This document shows positions 3,042 to 24,268 of a stretch of DNA of 33,559 nucleotides, in pieces. The stretch covers positions 1 to 33,559 of the forward strand of contig JAFEBB010000079.1 of the NCBI GenBank assembly GCA_018266075.1, given 5' to 3'. Numbering within the stretch: position 1 is the stretch's first letter; each line of letters starts with the position of its first letter. Position numbers and translations under genes: made by a program. Origin of the DNA: Deltaproteobacteria bacterium. GTDB lineage: Bacteria; Myxococcota; Myxococcia; Myxococcales; SZAS-1. The notes under the pieces are model-generated. The model did not search any database and had not been told where the DNA came from. It worked only from the letters and a program-made list of their open reading frames with translations.

Positions 3042-4412
3042 CTACTGGCAGGTGCCGTTGATGCACGAGCCGCCATCGCAGTCGACGTTGGTGCGGCATG
3101 CCAGGCCCGCGTCGACGCCGCCCGTGGTCCCGCCGCTTCCCGACGTGCCGCTGGTGCCGGTGGTGTTGGCGGGGAACTCGCAGATCCCGCCGATGCACGA
3201 CTGGCCCGTGGCGCAGTCCGAGTCGGTGTTGCAGCTACCGCCCGTCGTGCCACCGGTGGTGGTGCCCGAGCCGGTGGTGCCGCTCGACGCCGGCTGGCAG
3301 ACGAGGTTCACGCACGCGTCGCCCGAGGGGCAGTCCGAGTCGGCGCGGCAGGGCGCCGGGCCCGCGTCGACGCCGCTCGTGCCCGACGTTCCGGTGGTGC
3401 TCGAGGTCCCGGTGCTGCCGATGGGCTGGCAGACGAGGTTGATGCAGGCGTCGCCCGAGGGGCAGTCCGAGTCGGCGCGGCAGGGCGACGGTCCAGCATC
3501 GACGCCGCTGGTGCCCGAGGTGCCGGTGGTGCTCGACGACGCGCCAATGCACTGGCCGCTGGAGCAGACCTGGCCTGTGGCGCAATCGCTGTCCGCGGTG
3601 CAGCCGCTGCCGGTGGTGCCCGTGGTGCTCGACGCACCCGCGGTGCAGACGCCGTTCACGCAGCTCTGGCCGGTGGCGCAGTCGCTGTCGGTGCGGCAGA
3701 CGTTACCGGTGGTGCCCGAGGTGCCGGTGGTGCTCGACGCGGCCGCGCCGCAGACGCCGTTGACGCAGCTCTGACCGGTGGCGCAGTCGCTGTCGGTGCG
3801 GCAGGCGTTGCCGGTGGTGCCCGAGCTGCCGTTGGTGCTCGAGGTGCCCGTCGTGCTGGGCGAGACGCAGGTGTTGGACACGCAGGTCTGGCCGCTGGCG
3901 CAGTCGCTGTCGGTGCTGCAGCCGCTCGTGGTGGCGGGCTGGTAGCGGGTGAAGCCGGTCACGCTGAACGAGACGTGGTGCGCGACCGAGTCGATGCTGA
4001 GCTGCTCGTGGTTGAAGTGCAGGCGCGTGCCATCGGACTCCTCGCCCTCGACCACCAGCTCGGCCTCGCTGCCGCCGCTGGGAAGCGCGTAGTCGAGGGT
4101 CACGCTGGCGGGCGTGGCGAAGTGGGTGCCATCGGGGCCGAACTCCACCGTCGGGCCGGCGCCGGTCGCTGCCGACGAGATGTCGTTCTCGGCCACGGTG
4201 ATGGTGATGGTGGTGTCCTGCGAGAGCGAATTGGGCGGGATGGTGATGGACGTGCCCGCGAGCGCCGCGTCGTCCGACGCGCTGACGGTGATGGTGCCGC
4301 CCTGCGAGGCCGAGATGGCCTGCGACTTCACGTAGCGGCTGCCGACCTGCGAGTTGCCGCCACAGCCGAGCGCGCCCAACAAGCCGAGCCCGACGAGGAT
4401 CTTCCGCGACAT
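3042..4412 (-). CDS. Lipoprotein with ZU5-like domain and eight Cys-rich repeats
   Basis: A 456-residue predicted lipoprotein. The start is the ATG with AGGAGG nine bases upstream rather than a GTG 14 codons earlier. The lipobox ends ALGC at about residue 17. Residues about 28-155 resemble a ZU5-type beta domain (GGTITV..., IPPNSL, VEFGPDGTHF, VTLDYALP). Eight repeats of the form CxxDSDCxxGxxCxxxxC follow, separated by Ser/Thr/Gly linkers; the last repeat is shortened and ends the protein. Each repeat can form disulfides, so the protein should project from the envelope as a beaded stalk. A motif upstream matches one before the ECF sigma gene at 6905, so this is a candidate sigma target. The ligand is unknown. 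Confidence 0.85.
   Translation of the reverse strand: MSRKILVGLGLLGALGCGGNSQVGSRYVKSQAISASQGGTITVSASDDAALAGTSITIPPNSLSQDTTITITVAENDISSAATGAGPTVEFGPDGTHFATPASVTLDYALPSGGSEAELVVEGEESDGTRLHFNHEQLSIDSVAHHVSFSVTGFTRYQPATTSGCSTDSDCASGQTCVSNTCVSPSTTGTSSTNGSSGTTGNACRTDSDCATGQSCVNGVCGAAASSTTGTSGTTGNVCRTDSDCATGQSCVNGVCTAGASSTTGTTGSGCTADSDCATGQVCSSGQCIGASSSTTGTSGTSGVDAGPSPCRADSDCPSGDACINLVCQPIGSTGTSSTTGTSGTSGVDAGPAPCRADSDCPSGDACVNLVCQPASSGTTGSGTTTGGTTGGSCNTDSDCATGQSCIGGICEFPANTTGTSGTSGSGGTTGGVDAGLACRTNVDCDGGSCINGTCQ
3045..3920 (-). repeat. Eight-unit Cys-rich coding repeat array
   Basis: This is the DNA encoding the eight CxxDSDC-type units and their Ser/Thr/Gly linkers. Neighbouring units are near-identical at DNA level; the pair around 3310-3345 and 3430-3484 share long stretches around CAGTCCGAGTCGGCGCGGCA. 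This makes the array a likely site for unit gain or loss by recombination. Confidence 0.8.
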
Positions 4413-4440
4413 GGTGAGCCTCCTGTGCTGCGTTCGCGCG

Positions 4441-4474
4441 GTGAATGGCTCCACGCCCGGCCACCTTCAAGAAA
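4441..4474 (-). promoter_or_regulatory. Candidate ECF-sigma promoter of the Cys-repeat lipoprotein
   Basis: On the minus strand, TTTTCTTGAAGGTGG (-35-like core at 4461-4470) is followed about 14 bases later by CCATTCACC. The same pair, with one base difference in spacing and one in the second box, occurs before the sigma gene (6914-6950). The start codon lies 28 bases downstream of the second box with its own AGGAGG. This is inferred only from the shared sequence. Confidence 0.5.
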
Positions 4475-4491
4475 AGAATTCGCGCCCGAAA

Positions 4492-6285
4492 TCAGCGCCC
4501 CAGCGCCTGCTCCACCTCGGCCCGCCGCGGGCCTTGCGGATGGCGCTCGAGGTACGCGCGCAGCGAGGCCTCGGCGCCCGCGAGATCGCCCGACTGGCGC
4601 TGACAGAACGCGGTGAAGAAGAGCGCCTCGGCAGCGGAGGGCGTGCCCTCGAGCTTGCGGTAGTCGTCGATGGCTTCGGACCAGTCGCGGCGATCGCGGT
4701 GCAGGTTGGCGCGCAAGAGCCGCATCTCGTGGGCGCGCTCGCTGCCAGGGTAGTGCGCGAGGAACCCGTCGAGCGACTCCAGCGCGGCGCCTGGCTTCTG
4801 CAGCGCGAGCTGGACCTCGATGGTGGAGATCGCCACCTCCTGGTTCAGCGCGCCGCGCGGGTAGCTCGACTGGTAGCGCTCGAAGGCATCCAGCGCGCCG
4901 GGCAGATCGCCCAGGCTCCGCTGACGCAGCCGGCCCAATTCGTAGAGCGCGAGATCCGCGCGCGGCTCGTGCGCGTCGACGACCTGCTGCAAGAGCCCCG
5001 CGGCCTCGCGCGCGTGACCCTGCTGCGCCAGCTCCAGCGCGCGCGCGTAGTGATCCACCGGCGGTGCGGGCGTCGGGAGCGGCGTGGGCTCGGCGCGGAC
5101 GATGACTGGAACCTCGGGCGCGGCGACTGGCGCGGGCGGGACGGGCGCGGGCGTGGGCACCGGCGGCGTCTCGACGGCGGTCGGCTTGGGCTCGATGGGC
5201 TGAGTTCGCGTCGGCTCGCGGTGCGGTATCTCGACGTGCGGCGCGGGGCGCTCGACCTTGGGCGCCGCAGCGACGACGACCGGAGCCGGCGTCACGTCGA
5301 CCTTCGCGGATTCGGGCTTGACGGGTGCAGCCTCGCTCTTCGCGGGCGCTGCGAGCCGCACCACGGAAGGCTCGCCTGCGCGCACGCGCGTCTCGAGCTC
5401 CACCTTGCCCGAGCTCGAATCTGCCGTGATGCGATGCACGCCTTCGCTCGCGAGGACGCTCGTCGGGGCGGGACCGAGCGCCGCGCCGTCCATGGCGACG
5501 CGGAAGTCGCGCTCGCCCTCCACCCGAACCTCGCTGCGCGCGCCGCCGCCGCCCACCGCCTCGAGCAGCGCGACCACTTCGGTGGTCACGATGCTCGCGG
5601 CGACGGCGTCCGGGGCATTGCTGCGCCAACGCTGACCGGCGCTCACCCGCCAACGGAGGTCGCCGCGCGAGGCTTCGACCGCGCCCGAGGCCACGTCCAC
5701 CACGGTCTCGCCCGCCGCGTCGAGGCGGACCTCGTAGGTTGAATTCTCTCCGCGCAGCACCTGCTCGCCCGACTGGAGCACCACGTCGCTCGAGGGCGTG
5801 TGCAGCGCGAGCTTGCCCGCGGTGAGCCGAAGCCGGGTGGGGCCATCCAGGGCGATGGTGGTGTCTGCGTCGAGCGCCGCGGCGGCCCGACCGAGCTCGA
5901 GGACTGCCCGCGCGCTGGCTCCCGTGTGCAGTCGGCTCCCCGGAGCGAGCACCTGGCCCGCGTGCGCGGCGATGTCGGCCTGCGGCGGCGTCCCGAGAAC
6001 TACGTCGCCTGCGGCGAGCGTCAGCACTGCCTCGGGGACCGGATGTGGCGCAGAGATGCCGCGCCAGACCAGGAACACCAGCGCCGCCGAGCCCGCAGCC
6101 GCCAGTGCCATGCGGAAGAACGGCGGACGCTGCGGCTGCACCCGCTCCGCCTCGAGCCGGCGCCACACGCGCTCGCGTGCGAGGTCGTCGCGAACGGGCT
6201 CGCCGAGCCGCGCGAGGAGCTCGGCGCTCTGGCGGTCGGCGGGCTCGGCGCCGTCCACGAGCCGCTGCGGGTCGTGCTGGCTCAT
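4492..6285 (-). CDS. Membrane FecR-domain / TPR protein, putative regulator of the adjacent ECF sigma
   Basis: A 597-residue protein whose ATG overlaps the sigma stop (ATGA), which implies translational coupling. The N-terminal 50 residues are cytoplasmic and helical (RVWRRLEAERV). One membrane helix spans about 56-74. A FecR-type beta domain follows (about 90-225: AGDVVLGTP, GSRLHTGASARAVLEL, GKLALH, VSAGQRW), then a PEGA-like segment (about 260-310). A Pro/Ala/Val linker (about 315-425) leads to C-terminal TPR helices (about 430-597). FecR proteins gate ECF factors across the inner membrane, so this is likely the anti-sigma or sensor, with the TPR part in the periplasm binding partners. No zinc HxxxCxxC motif is seen, so it is not a ZAS-type anti-sigma. 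Confidence 0.85.
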   Translation of the reverse strand: MSQHDPQRLVDGAEPADRQSAELLARLGEPVRDDLARERVWRRLEAERVQPQRPPFFRMALAAAGSAALVFLVWRGISAPHPVPEAVLTLAAGDVVLGTPPQADIAAHAGQVLAPGSRLHTGASARAVLELGRAAAALDADTTIALDGPTRLRLTAGKLALHTPSSDVVLQSGEQVLRGENSTYEVRLDAAGETVVDVASGAVEASRGDLRWRVSAGQRWRSNAPDAVAASIVTTEVVALLEAVGGGGARSEVRVEGERDFRVAMDGAALGPAPTSVLASEGVHRITADSSSGKVELETRVRAGEPSVVRLAAPAKSEAAPVKPESAKVDVTPAPVVVAAAPKVERPAPHVEIPHREPTRTQPIEPKPTAVETPPVPTPAPVPPAPVAAPEVPVIVRAEPTPLPTPAPPVDHYARALELAQQGHAREAAGLLQQVVDAHEPRADLALYELGRLRQRSLGDLPGALDAFERYQSSYPRGALNQEVAISTIEVQLALQKPGAALESLDGFLAHYPGSERAHEMRLLRANLHRDRRDWSEAIDDYRKLEGTPSAAEALFFTAFCQRQSGDLAGAEASLRAYLERHPQGPRRAEVEQALGR

Positions 6286-6905
6286 GACGACTCCTCCATC
6301 ACGCCGATGCGCCGGCCGATGCGCGCGAACTCCTTGCGCGCGTGAAACAGCCGCGTCCAGACCGTGTCCACCGGGCAGTCCACGCGTCGAGCGATCTCCT
6401 CGCCGGAGAGGCCCTCGATCTCGAAGAGCACGAACACCTCGCGCTTCTTGGGCTTCATGCGCTCGAGGATGCGCGACACCTGGGCTTGCGCTTGCGCCTG
6501 CTGGAGCTGGGCCTCGGGCGTGGGGCCGCGCGCGACCTCAGCCTCGGGATCTGCCGCTGGGCCGAAGATGCTCATGAGCGCGCTGCGCACGCGGCGCCGG
6601 CGGTGGTGATCGGTCACCACGTTCGCGCAGATTCGATAGAGCCAGGTGGTGAGCTGACCTTCGTGGAAGCGATCCAGCTTGCGGAAGGCGATGGCGAACA
6701 CGTCGTGGGCCACGTCGTCGAGCTCGGCGGGCGGCGTGCCCAGGTTGCGCGCGGTGCGGTGCACGAAGTCGAAGTGCGCGGCGTAGAGCGAGCGCCACGC
6801 CGCCGCGTCGCCCGAGCGGCAGCGGGCAACGAGCGCGAGCGTGCGCGCATCGTCGGCCTCGGGAGGCGCGGGCGTGGGGTCCACCTTGAGCATCACGAGC
6901 AGCAT
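6282..6905 (-). CDS. ECF-type RNA polymerase sigma factor
   Basis: A 207-residue sigma-70 family factor with only regions 2 and 4. Region 2 includes DVAHDVFAIAFRKLDRF and TWLYRICANVVTDHHRRRR. After a short acidic linker, region 4 runs KKREVFVLFEIEGLSGEEIARRVDCPVDTVWTRLFHARKEF, with a clear helix-turn-helix. There is no long C-terminal extension. It is coupled by a 4-base overlap to the FecR/TPR gene. Two starts are possible: the ATG at 6905, and an ATG at 6893 giving MLKVDPT. If the upstream motif is its promoter, transcription would begin almost at 6905, favouring 6893 or near-leaderless translation. It probably controls its own operon and the lipoprotein at 3042. Confidence 0.92.
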   Translation of the reverse strand: MLLVMLKVDPTPAPPEADDARTLALVARCRSGDAAAWRSLYAAHFDFVHRTARNLGTPPAELDDVAHDVFAIAFRKLDRFHEGQLTTWLYRICANVVTDHHRRRRVRSALMSIFGPAADPEAEVARGPTPEAQLQQAQAQAQVSRILERMKPKKREVFVLFEIEGLSGEEIARRVDCPVDTVWTRLFHARKEFARIGRRIGVMEESS

Positions 6906-6913
6906 GGCGCGCA

Positions 6914-6950
6914 GGTGGATGGTGCGGCCAGCCTCCCACCTTCAAAAAAA
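6914..6950 (-). promoter_or_regulatory. Candidate autoregulated ECF promoter
   Basis: On the minus strand, TTTTTTTGAAGGTGG (core 6936-6945) plus CCATCCACC (6914-6922) repeat the pair seen before the lipoprotein gene at 3042-4412. The TGA inside the core is the stop codon of the upstream barrel gene. Spacing between boxes is typical of ECF promoters, but the -35 sequence lacks the common GGAAC. Confidence 0.5.
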
Positions 6951-7886
6951 GAGCTTGGACAGCCCGAGCGAGATCCCGCCGTCAAAACGGCTGCTTGGAT
7001 AGAGGTCCGCTGAGCCGTCCACGCTGTACGTGGTGGTGCTGGCATAGACGCGCCCGTCCGCGCGCAGCGTGAGCGCGATGCGAGCCGGGAGGCCGAGCTC
7101 GTACGCCGCGCGCGCGCCAAGGAATGGAATCGTCGTCGTGGCAGGCGCGTCATGAAATACGCGCGCTCCGCTTGCGCTGACGCTTTCCAGCGCCACGCCC
7201 GGCCCGGCGTCGAGCACCAGCGCGCCAGGCCCGAGCGGCCGAACCCAACCGGCGACGAGCTCCGCACGGCCGGCGGTGGCGCTCAGCGTCCCCGGTCCGG
7301 TCGTGTCGTCCGGTAGGCCCTTGAGCGCCCTCGACTCCGACGTCGAGCCTGCGATCGCGAGCTCCAGCCGCAGCGCGCCGCGCTGCACACCACCGCCGAG
7401 CTCCACCATCGGCCGAAGCGCGAGCAGCCCGCTCTCCACGCCGCCCGCGAGCTCCAGCACGCCGAACCACGGCACGGGCGGCGTCGGCGGCTCTGGCGGC
7501 GGAAGCGGAGCGATCACCGCCGGCCCGCCCTTCCAGTTCACCTCGATCAAATAGCGGTCGACCATCAGCGCTGCGGTGTCCGCCAACGCCACGCAGTCGG
7601 CGCCGGGGTCGGGCAGGGCGCGCTGAAGCGGCGAGTCGCCGGCGCCTCGGACCTGCAGGCTCCACTGGCCCGGTCCGCGCTCGACGTTGACGGCCACGTC
7701 CCCGGCAGTCACCTCGCCGCCTGCGCGCACCTCGTCGGCCGGCCGCCGCAGGTGGATCGCGGCCACGAGCTTCTCTGCGCTGCAGCTCGCAGGGTCCGCG
7801 GGGAGTGCCACCCGAATGGTCGACGCGCGTGCGTTGGGCGCGGCGAGCGTCGCCGCGAGCGCCAACCAGCGGCAAAGCTTGCTCAG
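6942..7886 (-). CDS. Predicted outer-membrane beta-barrel protein
   Basis: About 314 residues. No ATG or GTG fits. The best start is a CTG whose last two bases lie in the stop of the upstream gene (CTGA overlap); a TTG seven codons later is the alternative. A signal peptide follows (LCRWLALAATLAAPNARA-S). The middle is a soluble domain with a Pro-rich hinge (PPPEPPTPPVPW, about 180). The C-terminal half alternates polar and hydrophobic strands (VELGGGVQRGALRLELAIAG, PARIALTLRADGRVYAS) and ends LSKLFF; a terminal Phe is the usual barrel-assembly signal. It sits directly upstream of the sigma gene, suggesting a shared envelope role. I do not recognise a named family. Confidence 0.7.
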   Translation of the reverse strand: MSKLCRWLALAATLAAPNARASTIRVALPADPASCSAEKLVAAIHLRRPADEVRAGGEVTAGDVAVNVERGPGQWSLQVRGAGDSPLQRALPDPGADCVALADTAALMVDRYLIEVNWKGGPAVIAPLPPPEPPTPPVPWFGVLELAGGVESGLLALRPMVELGGGVQRGALRLELAIAGSTSESRALKGLPDDTTGPGTLSATAGRAELVAGWVRPLGPGALVLDAGPGVALESVSASGARVFHDAPATTTIPFLGARAAYELGLPARIALTLRADGRVYASTTTYSVDGSADLYPSSRFDGGISLGLSKLFF

Positions 7887-10339
7887 GCCAGCACCATGCG
7901 CGTGTAAGCGCCCACGAAGAAGGTGATGAGGATGATGCCGATGATGGTGAGGATGGTGTTCACGTACTTGAACCGCCGGTCCTTGCCCATCACCTCCCAG
8001 CCGATGTTCGCGCCGATGATGGACTGCAGGCTCATGGTGAAGAGCGCCAGCTGGCTCATGTTCTTGAGCACGTGGATCTCGCCGTTGAACTTTACCTCGG
8101 TGTCGTGACACGCGGCCCGGTAGATGAACGAGAAGATGAGCGACATCACCAAGGCTGTAACAAGAATGTTAATGAGTCGCACGCCCCAGCCGAAGCCCTT
8201 CTCGAACACCAGCCACTGGAACGCCGCCGAGGCGCGGGTGAGCGCGTCGCCCTCACGGAGATCGCGCGCGGTGGCGTAGTGCCGCTGGAACCAGTAGGCC
8301 CAGTCGTGGTCGGCCGGCTGAGCCTGCTTGGCGAAGGCGTCCTGCAGGGTGCTGAACTCGTCGAGCGCGTGGTCGAAACACACGCCGCGCAGATCGTCGC
8401 TGCCGTCGGCGTCGCGCTCGAGGCGGGCGTCCTTGGCTGCGCCGTCCACCTTGCCGCCCGCGCACGCCTCGTAGAAGAGCGTGTGCGTGCCGTCCTTGCG
8501 CTCCACCTGGTCGCGGGCGATCTGGAACGCGCCGATGCTCGCGCCCCAGAAGGAGAGATCGCTCGCGTCGGTGAGCGTGGCGTCGGCGAGGGAGAGCCGG
8601 CCGGAGATGTTGCTCTCGTCGAGCACCAGCGAGCCGTCGAGCTTGGCGCGGTTGAGCGCCACCTCGCGCCCCGCCATCGCCGACAGATCGAGCCGCCCGT
8701 GCACCTCGGCGCGCTCCAGGTGCAGCTCGCCGATGCGCGCGCCGTAGAAGAGGATCGAGGTCGGCCTGTTCGCTGCGCCGAAGCGCACCGCCTCCAGCAC
8801 CAGGCGGCCGTCGACGTTCAGGTTGGCGAAGCTCACGTCGGCGTCGAACTGCGAGCTGAGATCGTCGGGCCCGGCGACGCCATACGCCGGCCCGGAGAAC
8901 GCCGCGGGATCGGCGTCCTCGTCGCCCAGGTAGAGCCGGTACAGCCGCGGCAGCGACGCGAGGTCGGCCTGGTAGCGCCGCCGCTGCCCGCCATCGAGCG
9001 CAAAGCGCGCCGTCCCGCGCACGTGCACATCGGCGAGCGAGAGCGGCGCCGTCACCTCCAGCCCGAACGCGTCGAGCGCGGCCAGATCGCTCTCGTCGAG
9101 CCGCACCGGCGCGTGCAGCTTCGCGCGCGAGAGCGCCAGCCGCTCGCCCACGTGCATGCGCGTGAGCAGCGCCGGGCCTTCGAAGCGCGCGCCCTCGAAG
9201 GTCGCGCCGCGATCGAAGTTCGATTCGTCGAACGTCGACGCGGCCAGGAAGCGCGCGCCATTCAAGTCCACCATCGCGCCGCGCGCGCGAAGCGACGACA
9301 GATCGGCCTGGCCGTCGAAGCGCGTGCCGCCCAGGTACGACGCGCCGCCGAGCTCCAACCCACGGAGCTGCGCGGCCTGACCGAAGCTGGCGAAGCGCAG
9401 GTCGAGCGTGTTCGGGAACTCGGCGTTGCGCAGGTCCACCGGGCCCAGGAACGTGGCGAACGCGAGCAGCCCCAGCCGCGAGGCCTTCACGCCCTCGAGC
9501 CGTGCCGCACCGGTGACCACCACGTCGCGCAGGCCCAGGGTGACGAAGCTCCCCGCAGGCAGCTTGGCGCTCTTGTTGGCCTCGCCCGCCCAGTGCTGGC
9601 CCACGAGCAGCTCGCCCACCACCGCGTGCTGCACGTAGAAGTCGTCGAGGTGCGCGCCGGCCGTGCGCAGCTTGCCAATCACCGACCGCGCGATGAGGAG
9701 CTTTCCGGGCTGGGTGAGGTTGCTCAGATCCAGCTCGGGGACGATCACGAACTTGAGCGCGCCGTCCTTGAGGAGCCGCGCCTTGGCTTCATCGGGCGTG
9801 AGGCGCTCCAGCGGGTGCGCTGCGCCGTCGGGGCCGGGCAGGGTGGGCGGCTCGGCGCCCTCGGCGGGCGTGGAGAGTTTCGCGAGCGCCGCGTTCGCGC
9901 GCTCGAGCAGCGTCGCGCTCCGCGGCCCTTCGACGAAGTGTCGGATGGCGATCGTCGCGGCGATGGGATCCTGCTGGATCGACCGGTCCCACGCGGTATC
10001 GGCTTCGGCGAGCTCACCGAGCGCCTCGCGCACCGCGGCCTCGCCCCAGCCCTTGCCCTTCACGGGGAAGTACATCGCCAGCTCGGAGCCTTCGATGGCC
10101 TTCCGGACCGTCTGCTCGGCGCCCGCACGGTCGCCGCTGGCGAAGGCCTTCTTTCCGGCGGCCAGGAGCGCGTCGGGGTCGGTGCTCGCCGGGCTGTCGT
10201 GCACTGGACCGGGCCAAGGCCCGGGAGGCGGCGCGGCGCTCCCGTGCGCGGAACGGACCTGGCCCCAGCTCCAGAGCACCACGCAGGTGAACCCGAGGAG
10301 GCGCAGGAGCTTGGCGGGAGAAAGTCGAGAAGTGCGCAT
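7883..10339 (-). CDS. Exported pentapeptide-repeat protein with C-terminal two-helix channel-like domain
   Basis: An 818-residue protein. The ATG start is preferred over a TTG ten codons upstream. There is an N-terminal signal peptide or anchor (LLRLLGFTCVVLWSW, to about residue 33). A TPR-like helical stretch spans about 55-155. A long quasi-pentapeptide region follows, about 205-610, with units such as LDLRFASF, ADLSSL, VDLNGARFLAASTF and FEGARF. At the C-terminus, TM1 (about 721-740), a re-entrant-like segment (LALFTMSLQSIIGANIGWEV, about 763-785) and TM2 (about 792-812) give the TM-P-TM order of two-TM ion channels. No TVGYGD filter is present. It overlaps the barrel gene by four bases. 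Likely an inner-membrane protein with a large beta-helix domain; function unknown. Confidence 0.78.
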   Translation of the reverse strand: MRTSRLSPAKLLRLLGFTCVVLWSWGQVRSAHGSAAPPPGPWPGPVHDSPASTDPDALLAAGKKAFASGDRAGAEQTVRKAIEGSELAMYFPVKGKGWGEAAVREALGELAEADTAWDRSIQQDPIAATIAIRHFVEGPRSATLLERANAALAKLSTPAEGAEPPTLPGPDGAAHPLERLTPDEAKARLLKDGALKFVIVPELDLSNLTQPGKLLIARSVIGKLRTAGAHLDDFYVQHAVVGELLVGQHWAGEANKSAKLPAGSFVTLGLRDVVVTGAARLEGVKASRLGLLAFATFLGPVDLRNAEFPNTLDLRFASFGQAAQLRGLELGGASYLGGTRFDGQADLSSLRARGAMVDLNGARFLAASTFDESNFDRGATFEGARFEGPALLTRMHVGERLALSRAKLHAPVRLDESDLAALDAFGLEVTAPLSLADVHVRGTARFALDGGQRRRYQADLASLPRLYRLYLGDEDADPAAFSGPAYGVAGPDDLSSQFDADVSFANLNVDGRLVLEAVRFGAANRPTSILFYGARIGELHLERAEVHGRLDLSAMAGREVALNRAKLDGSLVLDESNISGRLSLADATLTDASDLSFWGASIGAFQIARDQVERKDGTHTLFYEACAGGKVDGAAKDARLERDADGSDDLRGVCFDHALDEFSTLQDAFAKQAQPADHDWAYWFQRHYATARDLREGDALTRASAAFQWLVFEKGFGWGVRLINILVTALVMSLIFSFIYRAACHDTEVKFNGEIHVLKNMSQLALFTMSLQSIIGANIGWEVMGKDRRFKYVNTILTIIGIILITFFVGAYTRMVLA

Positions 10340-10450
10340 GGCCGGGCGAGCTTCGCGCGAATGGGTCAACCCCGGGAAGTCCCGTCGGGGGCGCCCCCGT
10401 TCGGGCGGGTGGCACCGGCTGCAAGCAGTGCCTAATGATGCAAGCGCGAA

Positions 10451-10477
10451 TGGCGCCCTCGCTCGGGCGCCAAGGAG
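10451..10477 (+). promoter_or_regulatory. Hairpin abutting the ribosome binding site of the receiver gene
   Basis: A perfect 8-bp stem TGGCGCCC/GGGCGCCA (10451-10458 and 10465-10472) touches the Shine-Dalgarno AAGGAG (10472-10477) that sets the GTG start at 10483. It could modulate translation. It also argues against the earlier ATGs at 10435/10438. Confidence 0.5.
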
Positions 10478-10482
10478 CGGCC

Positions 10483-10890
10483 GTGGCCGACGACTTCGAG
10501 GGGACGGTGCTGATCGCCGAGGATGACGAGGCCATCCGCGACGGCCTCTCCATGTCCCTGGAGATCGAGGGCTACCGGGTGCTCATCGCCGCCGACGGCC
10601 GGGAGGCGCTGGAGCTCTTGCCGACCATCGAGGCGCCGTGCCTGCTCCTGCTCGATCTGTTGATGCCGGTGATGAACGGCTGGGAGCTGCTCGAGGCCAA
10701 GAACGCCGACCCGGCGCTCGCGCCCATCCCGGTGGTGGTGCTGTCGTCTGCCGATGAGAAGCAGCGGCTGCCCGGCGTGGCGGCGTTCGTGCCCAAGCCC
10801 TACGAGCTGGACAAGGTCATCAACGCCATCCGCCAGTTCTGTGGACGCAGCGCGCCGCGCGGCCGCGCCGCGGGCCGAATGCTGAACTGA
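10483..10890 (+). CDS. Stand-alone response-regulator receiver protein
   Basis: A 135-residue single CheY-like receiver domain. The GTG start follows AAGGAG by five bases; earlier in-frame ATGs would place a hairpin inside the coding region. The acidic pair is at Asp14-Asp15, the phospho-acceptor is Asp58 (LLLLDLLMP), the switch Ser is at 88 (VVLSSADE) and the conserved Lys at 105 (VPKPYELDKV). There is no output domain; the basic tail (RSAPRGRAAGR) is short. Such single-domain receivers act by protein contact in phosphorelays or motility. No histidine kinase lies nearby, so the partner must be elsewhere. It diverges from the pentapeptide/channel gene. Confidence 0.9.
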   Translation: MADDFEGTVLIAEDDEAIRDGLSMSLEIEGYRVLIAADGREALELLPTIEAPCLLLLDLLMPVMNGWELLEAKNADPALAPIPVVVLSSADEKQRLPGVAAFVPKPYELDKVINAIRQFCGRSAPRGRAAGRMLN

Positions 10891-10962: not shown

Positions 10963-13431
<2,469 letters not shown>

Positions 13432-13699
13432 GTTTGCCACTCCTCAACTGGAGCTCGCGCAGAGGCCGCAAGGCGGCCCCGGTGAGCTCGGGTTTCGAGG
13501 GGTTGGCCGCTCGCAATCCGCGAACGCTTCAGCACGGCCTCGCCTCCGGCCGGAACGGGCCCGGAAGGGCGCGGCTCATACCACGCTGCGTCGAAGGCGA
13601 CAAGGCGATCTCGCGCTCGCCAACCGCCATTCGACACGCCCTTGCACAGCCCGCTGGGCGGCTGCGTTGGGCCTGGAAAGAAAAGACGGGGAGAGCGAC

Positions 13700-16848: not shown

Positions 16849-16871
16849 CGAGCTAGGTCGAGCTAGGTCGA
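16849..16871. repeat. Tandem 10-bp duplication over the treY stop codon
   Basis: CGAGCTAGGT occurs twice in tandem (16849-16858 and 16859-16868), followed by CGA. The treY stop (TAG on the minus strand, 16863-16865) lies in the second copy. The unit sits in the 17-base space between convergent genes. Confidence 0.7.
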
Positions 16872-19800
16872 TACCAGGACGGCGATCGGAAACTCGGCCC
16901 AGAGCCGGCGCAGCTCCAGCGCGCCCTGGCTCTCGAGCTTCTCGCCGGTCAGCAGATTCTCCCAGCCGGCGACGCCCTCCGGCAGCCGCACCTGCGCGGT
17001 CCACGCGGGCGTGCCGTCGGCGGCGTCGAGGCGCGCGAGCGTCCAGCGCGGGGCCACGAGGACCACGGTGCCCGTCGAGTGCCAGCGCGCGAGCGCGATG
17101 GTGTGCGGCGCGTCCGGACCTTCAACGGGCAGCGGCTGGTGCTCGCCGAGCTGGAAGAGCTCGGGCCGCGCCTTGCGCAGCTGGAGCGCGCGCCACAGCA
17201 GGTAGAGCTTGGACCGGCCGTCGTGCATGCCGCCGTCATGGGCCAGCTCGCGCGCGAGCGTGCGACGCGCGTCGGGCTCCTTCGCGCGACCCTCCAGCTC
17301 CTCCAGCAGGTGCGCGCGCAGCTCGAAGTCCACCGGCCGGCGATTGTCGGGATCGACCAGCGACAAGTCCTGCAGCTCGCAGCCCTGGTACACGTCGGGC
17401 ACGCCGGGCGCGAGGCACTTGAGCGCGGTCATCGAGAGCGACGTCAGCGCGCCCGCTCGCGCCACCCGCCGGGCGAAGGGCAGGAACGCATCGAGGAACG
17501 GCCGCGCCCGCAGCACCGCTTCCACGAAGGACTTGAGCGCGCTCTCGTAGCCCGCGTCGGGGTTCGTCCAGCTGGTGTGCGCCTTGGCCTCGCGCGCGGC
17601 CTTCTCCATGTAGCCCGTGGTCCGCTGCACGAACGCGTCCCAGCCGGGCGTGCCGGGCTCGTCCGCCGGCGCTGCGCCCACCAGCGTCTGGTAGAGCAGG
17701 TACTCGTCCTCGCGGTCCGGCGCGGGCTCGCCCTCCACCTCGGTCTTGTGGGCCGCGTTGAGCTGCGCCCAGTGCGCCACGTGCGCGCTCCACTCCTGCG
17801 CCACCTCGCTCAGCGCGCAGATGCGCGCGCGCACGTCCTCGCTCCGCTTGGTGTCGTGCGTGCTCGACGCGTTCAGCGTGAACGGATGCTGCGCGCGCCG
17901 CTCGGCGCAGAAGGCGTGGAACTCGTTCAGGGTGGTGCCGAAGACGCGCGGCTCGCCGCCGACTTCGTTGAGCGCGATCAGCCGGTGGTAATTGTAGAAC
18001 GCCGTGTCCTCGACGGCCTTCGCGGTCACTGGCCCGGTCGTCTGTTGCAGCTTGAGCGTGAACTCCAGCCACATCGCGCGCTCGGCCGCGGAGAGCGTCT
18101 CCGGGTAGCGAAGCAGCATCACGTCGCGCAGGAAGTCATAGACGCTGGCGGCCGTGGTCGGCGCGCGCCGCTTGGCTCGGGCGATCGTCTGCTCGATGTA
18201 TTGGCGATCGCGCGCGTCCACGCTCGCGGCGTCCGGACCGCGAATGTACGTTCTATAGATTGGAAAACATGCAATGAATTCGACGAGTGCGCGCGCGAGC
18301 TCGTTCAAGGTGAAGTCGCGCGTGCGCCGGTTGGTCTCGCTGATTCGGTTGAGCCGCGCGGCGAGCATGTTGATCTCGCTCGCCATCGACGAGCTCATGA
18401 TCTGCTTCTTCTTTTGATAGGTGAGCCCGGCAAAGTCATGCGGGTGGCCCACGAAGCTCGCGTAGGTGTCGCCGAGCGGCGTCTCCGCGGCGGGGTCCAC
18501 GAAGAGCCCCGTCGAGGCCACGAGGAAGTCGTAGCCCGTGGTCCCCGCGACGGCCCAGCCGTGCGGCAGCGGCTCGCGCCTCGAGAGGATCTTCTCGGCC
18601 ACCACGTAGAGCCGCTCGCGGGGGAGTTCGCCGGCCTCGAGCGCGTCCACGACGGCCTGTTCGACCCAGGCTCCGAGCTCCCAGGCCTCGGTCGTGGGCG
18701 CCTTCGCCAGCCGCCGCGCGCGCGCCGCCAGCCAGGCAATTTGTAAGTTTCTAAAGTAGCTCGCCGGGTCATACAGGCCGTCGGGATGGTCGATGCGCAG
18801 GCCGGTCGCGGTGCCGTCCGCGAGCAGGCCAATCACCAGGCGGTGCGCGTCGGCGAAGACGCGCGCGTCCTCCATGCGGATGGCCGCGAGCGTGTTGATG
18901 TCGAAGAAGCGGCGGTAGTTGATTTCCTCGCCGGCCGTTCGCCAATACGCGAGCCGGTATGCTTGATTGTCGAGGAGCGTATCCAGCAAATCGAAGGTAC
19001 GCGGCTCGCCCGCCGTGCCGCCGAAGCGCTTCACGTTGGCGTCGACATGGCGGCAGATGGCCGCGTTCCTCTCGCAGAGCGACTCCAGCCGCCGCTTGGC
19101 GATTTCCTTCTCGCGGTTACGCTCCGCGACCTGCGACGCATCGGTCTCGTTGCGCGAGGGCAGCTTGTCGAGCTGGGTGATGATCGACTCCAGTTCCTGC
19201 AGCGCAGGATCGTTGGGCCCGAGCTCGGCCCTGACCGAGTCGAGGTCGAACTGGAGCAACTGTGCAATTCGCCCGGGCGAGACGGGGAAGGCGTTTTCAA
19301 AGTACGCCAGCACGAACCGGCCGCCCTCACGTGCGAGCTTGAGCTCGCCCCGCTCGAGCACCACGCCGTACTGATCGCCGAGCACCGGCACCAGGATCTT
19401 GTTGTTGAGCTCGCTCTTGATGGGCTTCCAATCGATATCGAAATACGGCGCGTGGACGCTCGCCGGGCCGTTCTCGAGCACGTCCATCCACCAGCGGTTC
19501 TGGTGGCCAATGCCCATGTGGTTGGGCACGAAGTCGATGATCTGCCCCAGGTTGTGCTCGCGGAGCGCCGCGCAGAGCCGCGCGTATGCCGCGTCGCCGC
19601 CGAGCTCCGCGTTGAGCTTGGCGTGATCCACCACGTCGTAGCCGTGGCTCGAGCCCGGCGCCGCCTGGAGGATCGGCGACAGGTACACGTCCGAGATGCC
19701 CAGCTTCGCCAGGTACGGAACGGCCTTCGCCGCGGCGTCGAAGCCGAACTGCGGCGAAAGCTGCAGGCGATAGGTCGCGGTCGGCCGGCGCAGCGGCTCG

Positions 19801-19895
19801 CGGCGGAGCTGCGTGGAGAGCTCACGCACCAGCGCGCGCGCGCGCGACTCCGGATCAGCCTCCAGCGAGACTTCTTGTTGGGTCTCGATGGTCAC
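16863..19895 (-). CDS. treY: Malto-oligosyltrehalose synthase (GH13)
   Basis: A 1010-residue cytoplasmic enzyme that converts the reducing-end alpha-1,4 bond of maltodextrins to alpha,alpha-1,1, giving maltooligosyltrehalose. The GTG start lies 21 bases after malQ. GH13 motifs are present: region I DFVPNHMG (121-128), region II GLRIDHPDGL with the nucleophile near 368, the acid region VVAEKIL (about 430) and region IV STHDTKRSED (about 678). The C-terminal FPIAVLVST strand is typical. Length is greater than most TreY (about 700-950). The TreZ partner that releases trehalose is not in the window. Pairing with malQ suggests use of glycogen-derived dextrins for trehalose, perhaps for osmotic or desiccation stress. 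Confidence 0.95.
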   Translation of the reverse strand: MTIETQQEVSLEADPESRARALVRELSTQLRREPLRRPTATYRLQLSPQFGFDAAAKAVPYLAKLGISDVYLSPILQAAPGSSHGYDVVDHAKLNAELGGDAAYARLCAALREHNLGQIIDFVPNHMGIGHQNRWWMDVLENGPASVHAPYFDIDWKPIKSELNNKILVPVLGDQYGVVLERGELKLAREGGRFVLAYFENAFPVSPGRIAQLLQFDLDSVRAELGPNDPALQELESIITQLDKLPSRNETDASQVAERNREKEIAKRRLESLCERNAAICRHVDANVKRFGGTAGEPRTFDLLDTLLDNQAYRLAYWRTAGEEINYRRFFDINTLAAIRMEDARVFADAHRLVIGLLADGTATGLRIDHPDGLYDPASYFRNLQIAWLAARARRLAKAPTTEAWELGAWVEQAVVDALEAGELPRERLYVVAEKILSRREPLPHGWAVAGTTGYDFLVASTGLFVDPAAETPLGDTYASFVGHPHDFAGLTYQKKKQIMSSSMASEINMLAARLNRISETNRRTRDFTLNELARALVEFIACFPIYRTYIRGPDAASVDARDRQYIEQTIARAKRRAPTTAASVYDFLRDVMLLRYPETLSAAERAMWLEFTLKLQQTTGPVTAKAVEDTAFYNYHRLIALNEVGGEPRVFGTTLNEFHAFCAERRAQHPFTLNASSTHDTKRSEDVRARICALSEVAQEWSAHVAHWAQLNAAHKTEVEGEPAPDREDEYLLYQTLVGAAPADEPGTPGWDAFVQRTTGYMEKAAREAKAHTSWTNPDAGYESALKSFVEAVLRARPFLDAFLPFARRVARAGALTSLSMTALKCLAPGVPDVYQGCELQDLSLVDPDNRRPVDFELRAHLLEELEGRAKEPDARRTLARELAHDGGMHDGRSKLYLLWRALQLRKARPELFQLGEHQPLPVEGPDAPHTIALARWHSTGTVVLVAPRWTLARLDAADGTPAWTAQVRLPEGVAGWENLLTGEKLESQGALELRRLWAEFPIAVLVST

Positions 19896-19916
19896 GGCCG
19901 CACCGGGCCGGACGAA

Positions 19917-21452
19917 TCAGGGCAAGCGCGCGCTGCGTTGCGCCAGGCCGCGGAGGCGCGCGTTGGTGGCGCCGTCGGCGAGGAGCGCGGAGACGTCCTG
20001 GGGCATGCGGAACGTCCAGTTCGACTCCGCCACCGTACCCGGCACATTCACCCGCTCCCGAGTTCCCAGCGCGTCCTGAAAAGGAAGGAGCGTCAGGTCA
20101 GACCCCGAGCGGAATATGAGGTCGAGGATGGCGTCGCGCACCTGCGGGTCGAAGATCCTTGGAGCGCGCGCCTTGAGGTGGTTCAGCGCCGGGATGTCGA
20201 GGAACGCTTTGCGCTCGGCATCGGACAAGAGGTCGTACCACTCCGCCATCGACTCGGTGTCGTGCGTGCCCGTGACGGCCACCGAGAGCGCGGGCCACTT
20301 CATCGGGTCGCGGAACACCGCGTTGTCCTTCTCCCAGCGAAGCACGCGGTAGCCCGGCACGTTGAGCTTGGTGAGCGAGGTGCGCACGAAGTCGGGCACC
20401 GTGCCCAAATCCTCGGCGATCACCGTGGCGCGCTCCGAGAGCGTCCGCAGCACGGCCTCGCCATTCAGCGTCTGGTCCTTCTCGTTGTCGGGCGAGAACG
20501 CGGCGCGCTTGTCGGGGAAGCGGTGGTAGGTGCGGTACAGGCCCACCACGTGGTCCACGCGGTAGTAGTCGAAGAGCTCGGCCGCGCGGTGCCCGCGCGC
20601 GCGGAACCAGGCGAGCTTGTTCTGGGCCATCACGTCCCAGCGGAAGACGGGCAGGCCCCAGTCCTGGCCGTCGGCGCTGAAGGCGTCGGGCGGCACCCCC
20701 ACGCGGGCGTCCATGCGGAACTCGTCCTGGTGCGCCCAGACGTCGGCCGAATCGCCCGCAACCACGAACGGCAGATCGCCCATGAGCTGCACGCCCAGGT
20801 TGCGAATCTCCGCGCGTGCGGCGCGCCACTGCACATCCAGCTGCCACTGGATCCACTTGAGGAAGAGCAGCTTGTCCTGGAGCCGGGTGCGGTGCGACGC
20901 GAGCGCGCCCGGATCACGGCCGGCGAGCTCGGGCTCCCAGTCGGTCCAGGCGGTGTTGCGCTCGTCGTGCAGCGCCTTGAAGAGGACGAACTCCTCCAGC
21001 CACTCGCGCTGCGACTCGACGTAGCGCTTGAGCTCCGCGGCGCGCGCGGTGTCCTTCTGCCACTCGTGCTCGTGGAAGTGGCGATAGGCCATCCACGTCC
21101 CGAACTCCTTGAGCGGCCGCAGGTCGCGCCAGGGCACGAACTGCGCGGAGCGCACGCGCTGGAGCATGAGCTGCTGCTCCACCGACAGCGCCTTCGACCC
21201 GCCCGCGTGGTGAAAGTCCTCGCAGGCCTCGAGCGAGAGGAACATCGGGTCGAGCGCGAAGGCGCTGCTCGCGGCGTACGGGCTGTCCTGGCCGCTGGAC
21301 GGCTGGTTCACCGGCAAGAGCTGCACGAGCGAGAACCCGGCCTCGCGCGACCAGCGCGCAAACGGGACGAGGTCCGGGATCTCGCCGAGCCCCCAGCCCT
21401 GCGGGGTGCGGATCGAGAAGAGCGGGATGAGGACGCCGGAGCGACGGGCCAT
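19917..21452 (-). CDS. malQ: 4-alpha-glucanotransferase (amylomaltase, GH77)
   Basis: A 511-residue cytoplasmic enzyme that transfers alpha-1,4-glucan chains (disproportionation of maltodextrins). GH77 motifs are in order: SIRTPQGWGLGEIPDL near the N-terminus, LLPVNQP, SPYAASSAFALDP, GDLPFVVAGDSADVWAH, YYRVDHVVGL with the nucleophile near 297, VIAEDLG with the acid/base Glu near 345, and GTHDTESMAEWYD (about 397). Length is normal. Its ribosome site (AGGA, four bases before the ATG) includes the last base pair of the upstream M16 gene stop, six bases away, so translation may be coupled. treY follows after 21 bases, giving a glucan-to-trehalose pair. Confidence 0.95.
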   Translation of the reverse strand: MARRSGVLIPLFSIRTPQGWGLGEIPDLVPFARWSREAGFSLVQLLPVNQPSSGQDSPYAASSAFALDPMFLSLEACEDFHHAGGSKALSVEQQLMLQRVRSAQFVPWRDLRPLKEFGTWMAYRHFHEHEWQKDTARAAELKRYVESQREWLEEFVLFKALHDERNTAWTDWEPELAGRDPGALASHRTRLQDKLLFLKWIQWQLDVQWRAARAEIRNLGVQLMGDLPFVVAGDSADVWAHQDEFRMDARVGVPPDAFSADGQDWGLPVFRWDVMAQNKLAWFRARGHRAAELFDYYRVDHVVGLYRTYHRFPDKRAAFSPDNEKDQTLNGEAVLRTLSERATVIAEDLGTVPDFVRTSLTKLNVPGYRVLRWEKDNAVFRDPMKWPALSVAVTGTHDTESMAEWYDLLSDAERKAFLDIPALNHLKARAPRIFDPQVRDAILDLIFRSGSDLTLLPFQDALGTRERVNVPGTVAESNWTFRMPQDVSALLADGATNARLRGLAQRSARLP

Positions 21453-21458
21453 TTTTTC

Positions 21459-22822
21459 CTAGAGCGACTGGAACAGCGGTTGATTGACCTTCGCGGGATC
21501 GCCGAGCACCACGGTCTGGAGCTTGTTCACGTGCGTCTGCGCGAACTTCTGGATGTCGGCAGCCGTGACCGCGCGGATGCGCTCGGGCAACGTCTGCGCG
21601 AGGTGCCAGTCGCCGCCGTAGATGAGGGCGCGCCCGAGGAAGCCGGCCTGCCCGTCGACGGTCTCGTTGCCCATGAGCAAGCCGGTGAGGAACAGGCTCT
21701 TGCTGCCCGAGACCTCGGCGTCGGTGGCGGGCGTGCTGGCGAGCTTCTTGGCCTCATCGAGCATGACCTGCCAGGTGGTGTTGGCGTCGACGGCGGTGAC
21801 GTACAGGAAGCCGGTGGGCTCCTCGCTGCCCGCGCGCAGGCTCGCGCCCGGCGCGTAGGAGAGGTCGCGCTTGGTGCGCACCTCCTCGAAGAGCCGGTAG
21901 CCGAGCAGGTTCATGGCCACCATGCCCGCGGGCAGGTCGGCGTCCTTCCAGCCCGGGCCGGAGAACGTGCCCTGGATGTAGTTGGTGGGGAGCTTGCGCG
22001 CCTCGGTCGACAGCTTGGGCGCGGCCAGCGCGAGCGGAGGCAGCGGCGTCTGCACGTAGTTGCCCTTGGGCAGCGAGCCGAAGCGCTGCTTGGCGAGCTC
22101 GATGACGTGGTTCGCGTCCACGTCGCCCACGACCACGAGCACCAGGCGGCTGGTCTCGCGCAGCTTGTCCAGGTACGGCGCGAGATCGGCGGCCTTCACC
22201 GCGGCCACGCTCTCCAGCGTGCCCACCGCGCGGTTCGCGTACGGGGTGCCCGCGAAGAGCTGCTGGTGCACCAGGTAGCCGAGCCGGCCGTCCGGGCTCT
22301 CCTGCTCGTGGTGCAGGCCCGAGAGCTGCCGCGCGCGCTGGATCTCCAGCTCCTGTGCCGGCAGCGCCGGCTCCAGGAACGCGTCGACCATGAGGTTGAA
22401 CGTCTCGTCCCAGGCGGGCTTGAGCGCCTTGGCGCCGAAGCTGCCGAAGTCGTTCCCCGAGCCGCCGCCGACCTCCGAGCCGAGCGAGGCGAGCTTGCGC
22501 GCGTAGGCGTCCTTGTCGAGCTTGTGCGTGCCGCCCTCGGCCGCCGTGGCCAGCGCGAGCTGCTCGATGCCGGCGTTCTGCGCGGTCCAGTTGCGCACGC
22601 CGCCGAGGATGTAGAGCTGCCCGGCCACGAACTCGGCGCCGGGCGTGCGCTTCACCAGCACGCGCATGCCGTTGATGTCGGTCCAGGTGAAGGCGCCCTC
22701 GGTCTGCACGCCGCCCGTCGTGGGCGCAGCGGCCGTCGCCGGCGCGGTGTTGCCTGCAGAGGTGGGGCTGGCGCAGCCGGCGAAGGCGAGCGCGAACACG
22801 AACGCGAAGATCGAGCGCTTCA

Positions 22823-22823
<1 letters not shown>
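21459..22823 (-). CDS. M16-family peptidase-like lipoprotein lacking the zinc motif
   Basis: A 454-residue predicted lipoprotein (MKRSIFAFVFALAFAGC). The two-domain insulinase/processing-peptidase fold is recognisable. The position where HxxEH should be reads GIEQLALATAAEGG, so zinc ligands are absent. The FEEVRTKRDLSYAPGASL segment keeps the Arg/Tyr pair typical of the non-catalytic partner subunit. It starts inside the stop of the upstream catalytic M16 gene (TGATG, one-base overlap), so the two are made together and probably form a heterodimer in the envelope, comparable to mitochondrial alpha/beta MPP or PqqF-like pairs. Six bases separate it from malQ. Confidence 0.88.

Positions 22824-24268
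<1,445 letters not shown>

Follow-up and report, generated by a model that had tools for sequence, protein, structure and literature searches.

Genes and predicted products at the locus

The window, i.e., the whole DNA stretch of 33,559 nt that was analysed, is contig C79 of a genome assembled into 166 contigs (7.84 Mb in total). This genome is the sole representative of its family among those compared. The original prediction had placed a pentapeptide/channel protein, an outer-membrane barrel, an ECF sigma factor, a FecR-TPR protein and a Cys-repeat lipoprotein in one surface-sensing system, and gene calls confirm five consecutive genes, all on the minus strand. The range 4492-10339 assigned to them holds four of these genes, while the Cys-repeat lipoprotein named with them lies outside, at 3042-4412. 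The domain labels are recovered as Pfam Pentapeptide_3, Sigma70_r2/r4, TPR and ZU5 together with NCBIfam Myxo_Cys_RPT. We refer to the barrel, sigma, FecR-TPR and lipoprotein genes as BAR, SIG, FECR and LIPO.

The most upstream gene (7883-10339, minus strand) encodes a pentapeptide-repeat protein (Pfam Pentapeptide_3) with a C-terminal two-helix membrane part. Searches of PDB and NCBIfam gave no match; one match, a 28% identical pentapeptide protein on a Haloarcula plasmid, was found. No relative is present in the 146 other genomes of the class, and the C-terminal part has none in the 194 other Myxococcota genomes. Because of this, the protein is, as judged from the genome searches, a neighbour in this one lineage that stands outside the module described below, and we ruled it out as a fifth member. 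In pore-loop position it carries LFTMSLQSIIGANIGWE; a TVGYG filter is absent. Its reported 4-base overlap with BAR (7883/7886) holds only if BAR starts at a rare CTG.

The start of BAR (6942-7886, minus strand; about 311 residues) is uncertain, i.e., CTG 7886 or TTG 7865, where the latter is the next standard start and would leave a poor signal peptide. BAR has no Pfam match, and its assignment builds on an AlphaFold2 model (pLDDT 87.8), fold matches and relatives. The layout comprises a signal peptide, a periplasmic domain of ~95 residues, a Pro-rich linker, an 8-stranded barrel and a C-terminal FF. Residues 134-311 resemble OmpA (9a2m; Z 18.4, rmsd 2.5 over 156 residues) and residues 17-114 resemble TolB (7mx5; Z 10.1, rmsd 2.9 over 96 residues). 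BAR is thus predicted from its model to be an 8-stranded OmpA-like outer-membrane barrel with a TolB N-terminal-like domain. With regard to STN, the N-terminal domain gives no Pfam match and none among the fold matches listed, of which TolB is the best. BAR does not have the architecture of a TonB-dependent receptor, which requires a plug and a barrel of about 22 strands instead of one 8-stranded barrel.

SIG (6282-6905, minus strand) encodes an ECF sigma factor with regions sigma2 and sigma4 (Pfam Sigma70_r2, 46.8 bits; Sigma70_r4_2, 52.6 bits), in which the other sigma70 regions are absent; NCBIfam TIGR02937 is above its cut-off. The predicted 4-base overlap of SIG with FECR (6282/6285) is exact and reads ATGA.

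FECR (4492-6285, minus strand; 597 residues) is a predicted anti-sigma factor or sensor transducer, based on Pfam, PDB profile matches and an AlphaFold2 model. A short cytoplasmic helical segment with a conserved Trp41 is followed by one predicted transmembrane helix, a FecR domain, a PEGA-like domain, a Pro-rich linker and periplasmic TPRs. The label FecR-TPR stands for the TPRs, which Pfam detects, and for the family, since Pfam FecR is found in 6/7 members scanned; the window copy is below threshold and gives no FecR match at E<=0.1. The profile matches in PDB are the putative anti-sigma factors 4m0n and 4m0h, and the TPRs resemble YbgF/CpoB (2xev; Z 15.8, rmsd 2.1 over 119 residues). We infer that FECR acts as an anti-sigma factor.

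LIPO (3042-4412, minus strand) has a lipobox-like ALGC, found by inspection, and an N-terminal ZU5-like domain (Pfam ZU5 in 6/6 members scanned), followed by Cys-rich repeats and Ser/Thr/Gly linkers. The repeats are of the Cys-rich type of about 22 residues that Myxo_Cys_RPT describes (TIGR04201; 87.1 bits at a cut-off of 25, 7 stretches). Autoproteolytic ZU5 domains have an HFS-type cleavage site. Such a site is absent from the LIPO family: at the aligned position, most members have GFT and a single one has HFT. LIPO is a predicted surface-exposed protein. For the Cys-rich repeats of TraA, stalk formation has been proposed (PMC6372800).

Conservation of the module across Myxococcota

BAR, SIG, FECR and LIPO form a conserved four-gene module of Myxococcota. 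Profile annotation of gene neighbourhoods gave 16 loci with BAR-SIG-FECR-LIPO in one order and on one strand, such that the predicted co-occurrence across the phylum, which asked for four or more of the five families, is borne out. Together with the single sigma clade and the shared promoter motifs described below, these loci strongly support a surface-sensing module, as opposed to random neighbours, for the four genes; for the pentapeptide/channel protein the claim fails. Three further loci are incomplete or interrupted: the contig ends after FECR in L014 and before SIG in L172, and BAR is displaced by one gene in L168. In total, the module is found at 19 loci in 18 genomes from 13 genera and 6 families, some of them beyond the class of the window (G193, G163).

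The searches were started from different members of the module. Among 147 genomes of the class, BAR has relatives in six other genomes, and next to these, relatives of SIG, FECR and LIPO are found in unchanged order; against 195 Myxococcota genomes, the BAR profile matched 15. The ZU5-domain profile of LIPO gave 23 matches with at least 122 bits, the next being at most 70 bits, and we used this score gap as the family cut. SIG and FECR are directly upstream in 18/23 of these matches, and BAR directly precedes SIG in 16 of the 18. An independent SIG search of the named genomes returned the known loci and L026, which has all four parts and is the same as L125. Every module record that bears a name is a metagenome bin, the labels being Myxococcales, Myxococcaceae or Deltaproteobacteria.

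The other five ZU5 lipoproteins of the LIPO family (L165, L166, L167, L170, L171) have no SIG nearby, and FecR neighbours are absent too; GTGAAGACA-CCG is common to the upstream regions of L167 and L170. At L123, a BAR relative (4303-5259) and a FECR relative (6579-6986) are on opposite strands next to a contig end, i.e., the usual arrangement is broken.

The source genome holds two further sigma-FecR/TPR pairs, on contigs C3 (L020, 5400-9100) and C25 (L021, 5811-10400). Both belong to paralogous barrel, sigma, FecR-TPR and lipoprotein sets, with a barrel-like protein of the BAR layout before the sigma pair and a Cys- or Ser-rich lipoprotein after it.

A phylogeny built from 99 ECF sigmas places all 19 of the module in a single clade of their own (ultrafast bootstrap 98, SH-aLRT 90), whose nearest outsiders are L027 and two sigmas from the source genome. 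A literature search outside the main ECF classification returned no ECF sigma with a FecR-TPR system in myxobacteria.

Paired promoter-like sites before SIG and LIPO

We report here a new bipartite, promoter-like motif, TGAAGG-N16/17-CATTCA, which precedes SIG and again LIPO. In the window, the site of SIG-FECR reads TGAAGG-N17-CATCCA (6916-6944, minus strand) with the BAR stop codon inside its -35 half, and that of LIPO reads TGAAGG-N16-CATTCA (4442-4469, minus strand). Both emerge from the comparison of upstream regions and are strict matches in the genome. BAR is without such a motif.

The strict form of the motif (TGAA[C/G]G-N15..18-CATNCA) is present in 12/19 SIG and 10/18 LIPO upstream regions (22/37 altogether). 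Elsewhere on both strands of the module loci (530 kb) there is one match, and 200 shuffles gave none. The 7.84 Mb source genome has six strict matches, i.e., the two module sites and four within coding sequence, among them an ATP synthase beta-like and a GGDEF gene. A wider regulon in this genome was thus rejected, all four other strict matches being inside coding sequence. In the same strict search, no site was found before general envelope-assembly genes.

With mismatches allowed, both sites are readable in 17 loci; these are best-site picks that lean to the consensus, and the strict count stays at 22/37. The -35 class is identical between the SIG and the LIPO site in 17/17 of these loci, a number that overstates independence, since the -35 class switched in a single evolutionary event and the -10 half in about three. 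TGAACG is found at exactly six loci (L125, L127, L132, L133, L168, L169), which make up one sigma subclade (100/99), and TGAAG at the other 11. The -10 half co-changes in both sites as well: it is CGTT in the lineage of L015 and L016, TGTT/TGTC in L122 and CCTTCA twice in L169. That is, the -35 and -10 variants shift together per locus and track the sigma tree. Such paired variation is what one sigma reading both promoters predicts, and the two matching promoter sequences suggest that SIG switches on itself, FECR and LIPO. At the C25 copy, the paired motif takes a variant form of its own, TGAAGGT with the second halves CACTCAC and CACCTAC, and therefore the paralogous copies may perhaps be insulated from each other.

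The sites also bear on transcription of the locus. A single simple operon for all five genes is unlikely, because two internal promoter-like sites part SIG-FECR and LIPO from the upstream DNA, and we disfavour it as main reading. The predicted gap of 36 bases between BAR and SIG is exact; it gives no argument for read-through, because a promoter-like site sits inside it.

A predicted surface-to-gene circuit and its relation to known systems

Given the promoter evidence before SIG and LIPO, we read the module as a predicted sigma circuit, i.e., a variant form of cell-surface signalling. With a probability of roughly two thirds, the four genes constitute a FecIRA-like envelope-to-cytoplasm signalling circuit with a local regulon. 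In systems of the FecIRA type, the N-terminal domain of the receptor touches the regulator in the periplasm, and the regulator in turn controls the sigma via proteolysis (PMC9249621); in the Fox system, the same contact shields the regulator when the signal is absent (PMC11637429). By analogy, FECR would be placed in the inner membrane, where its cytoplasmic N-terminus would keep SIG inactive while its FecR and TPR domains extend into the periplasm. BAR, in the outer membrane, would contact or shield periplasmic FECR through its TolB-like domain, such that this domain and the FECR TPRs would stand in for the STN pair. An outside event sensed by BAR, LIPO or both would alter the BAR-FECR contact; FECR would then probably be cut and SIG freed. 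SIG would transcribe SIG-FECR from its own promoter, which amplifies and resets the loop, and LIPO from the second, near-identical promoter, which would bring more Cys-repeat lipoprotein to the cell surface.

Like FecI-FecR-FecA and its relatives (Fox, Pup, Has), the module combines an ECF sigma with a single-pass inner-membrane regulator with FecR domain (PMC9249621, PMC7186176), whose gene adjoins that of the sigma. It also shares an outer-membrane partner with an N-terminal periplasmic domain, and its promoter-like sites may correspond to the sigma promoter that those systems have on neighbour genes. In contrast, the module has a small OmpA-like barrel and no TonB-dependent transporter, and the TolB-like domain of BAR is at the place of the STN signalling domain of FecA. 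PupR consists of an anti-sigma segment, a membrane helix, an all-beta juxtamembrane part and STN (PMC7186176). FECR ends in TPRs according to both Pfam and the model, where FecR and PupR end in STN. Furthermore, the predicted output of the module is a Cys-repeat lipoprotein, and SIG apparently controls its own gene, which iron-uptake sigmas are reported not to do (PMC9249621). Finally, unlike fecA, the gene of the presumed receptor BAR would not be induced, as the motif is absent before it.

Other systems share single traits. PUMA3 of Pseudomonas aeruginosa (VreA-VreI-VreR) also has a non-canonical cell-surface signalling receptor that mixes Ton/Tol-type domains and a sigma that controls neighbouring surface or secretion genes (PMC2729926). 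VreA, however, is without barrel and has STN and a TolA/TonB-like domain, and neither a TPR regulator nor a ZU5/Cys-repeat lipoprotein is described for PUMA3. TraA-TraB of Myxococcus outer-membrane exchange likewise pairs a surface protein with Cys-rich repeats of ~20 residues with a barrel (PMC6372800). LIPO differs from TraA by its ZU5 instead of a PA14-like variable domain and by a lipoprotein-type anchor instead of MYXO-CTERM; BAR differs from TraB by lacking TSP-3 repeats and the OmpA domain, and a sigma factor is not described as part of traAB. The TolB N-terminal-like fold and the YbgF-like periplasmic TPRs recall Tol-Pal (TolB, CpoB/YbgF), but the module is without the TolB propeller, and its domains are fused to a barrel and an anti-sigma-like protein. 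Neither Pal nor TolA is among the neighbouring products scanned in the window.

The same parts could also be read as an envelope-stress or assembly monitor, in which TPRs and TolB-like domain watch barrel or lipoprotein assembly instead of an external ligand; LIPO would then be produced on demand, for repair or as a stalk. The resemblance of the FECR TPRs to BamD, MamA and YbgF, the TolB-like domain of BAR and a sigma with local envelope genes only fit such a monitor. We nevertheless consider it unlikely, as the TPR likeness is unspecific, with similar scores for many unrelated TPR proteins, and the lack of strict sites at general envelope-assembly genes is unlike an RpoE-type response. Sites before SIG and LIPO only would equally suit an autoregulated cassette without outside sensing, where SIG-FECR would determine how much LIPO is made or switch it on and off, and BAR would help to export or anchor it. 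BAR is indeed not part of what the sigma would control, which might suit a constitutive partner, and the paralogous modules of the source genome have different lipoproteins; yet it is difficult to see why a FecR-type transmembrane protein should have so large a periplasmic part if it received no input there, and the reviewed FecR-type regulators read periplasmic contacts (PMC9249621), which makes the cassette distinctly improbable. Chance neighbourhood, which does apply to the pentapeptide gene as a chance or lineage-specific neighbour, is barely credible for the other genes in view of 16 complete same-order loci over several families and the paired promoter variants.

The signalling circuit favoured here would be a compact route from surface to gene beyond iron transport, whose regulator, promoters and output are all predicted from sequence. 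If true, the contact domains of cell-surface signalling are swappable (STN-STN for TolB-like-TPR), and myxobacteria, which are known for their contact behaviour, maintain sigma circuits devoted to individual Cys-rich surface lipoproteins. Two promoters that vary in step with one sigma are also natural material for the study of sigma-promoter specificity. A bolder version, which we put forward tentatively and with considerable doubt, is an undescribed class of transenvelope signalling, where a small barrel makes contact, through its TolB-like domain, with the TPRs of a FecR-type anti-sigma. Several paralogous copies per genome would be mutually insulated by different -10 elements, and each would control one Cys-rich surface lipoprotein as sensor and output, possibly for kin or prey recognition.

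An anti-phage function was dismissed, as a PADLOC scan gave no convincing match. Upstream of the module, a single-domain response regulator (10435-10890) is divergent from the pentapeptide gene, with a membrane H+-pyrophosphatase (10963-13440) beyond it. The window further contains a row of genes for an amylase-domain protein, a GH77 4-alpha-glucanotransferase and two M16 peptidases (16863-24268).
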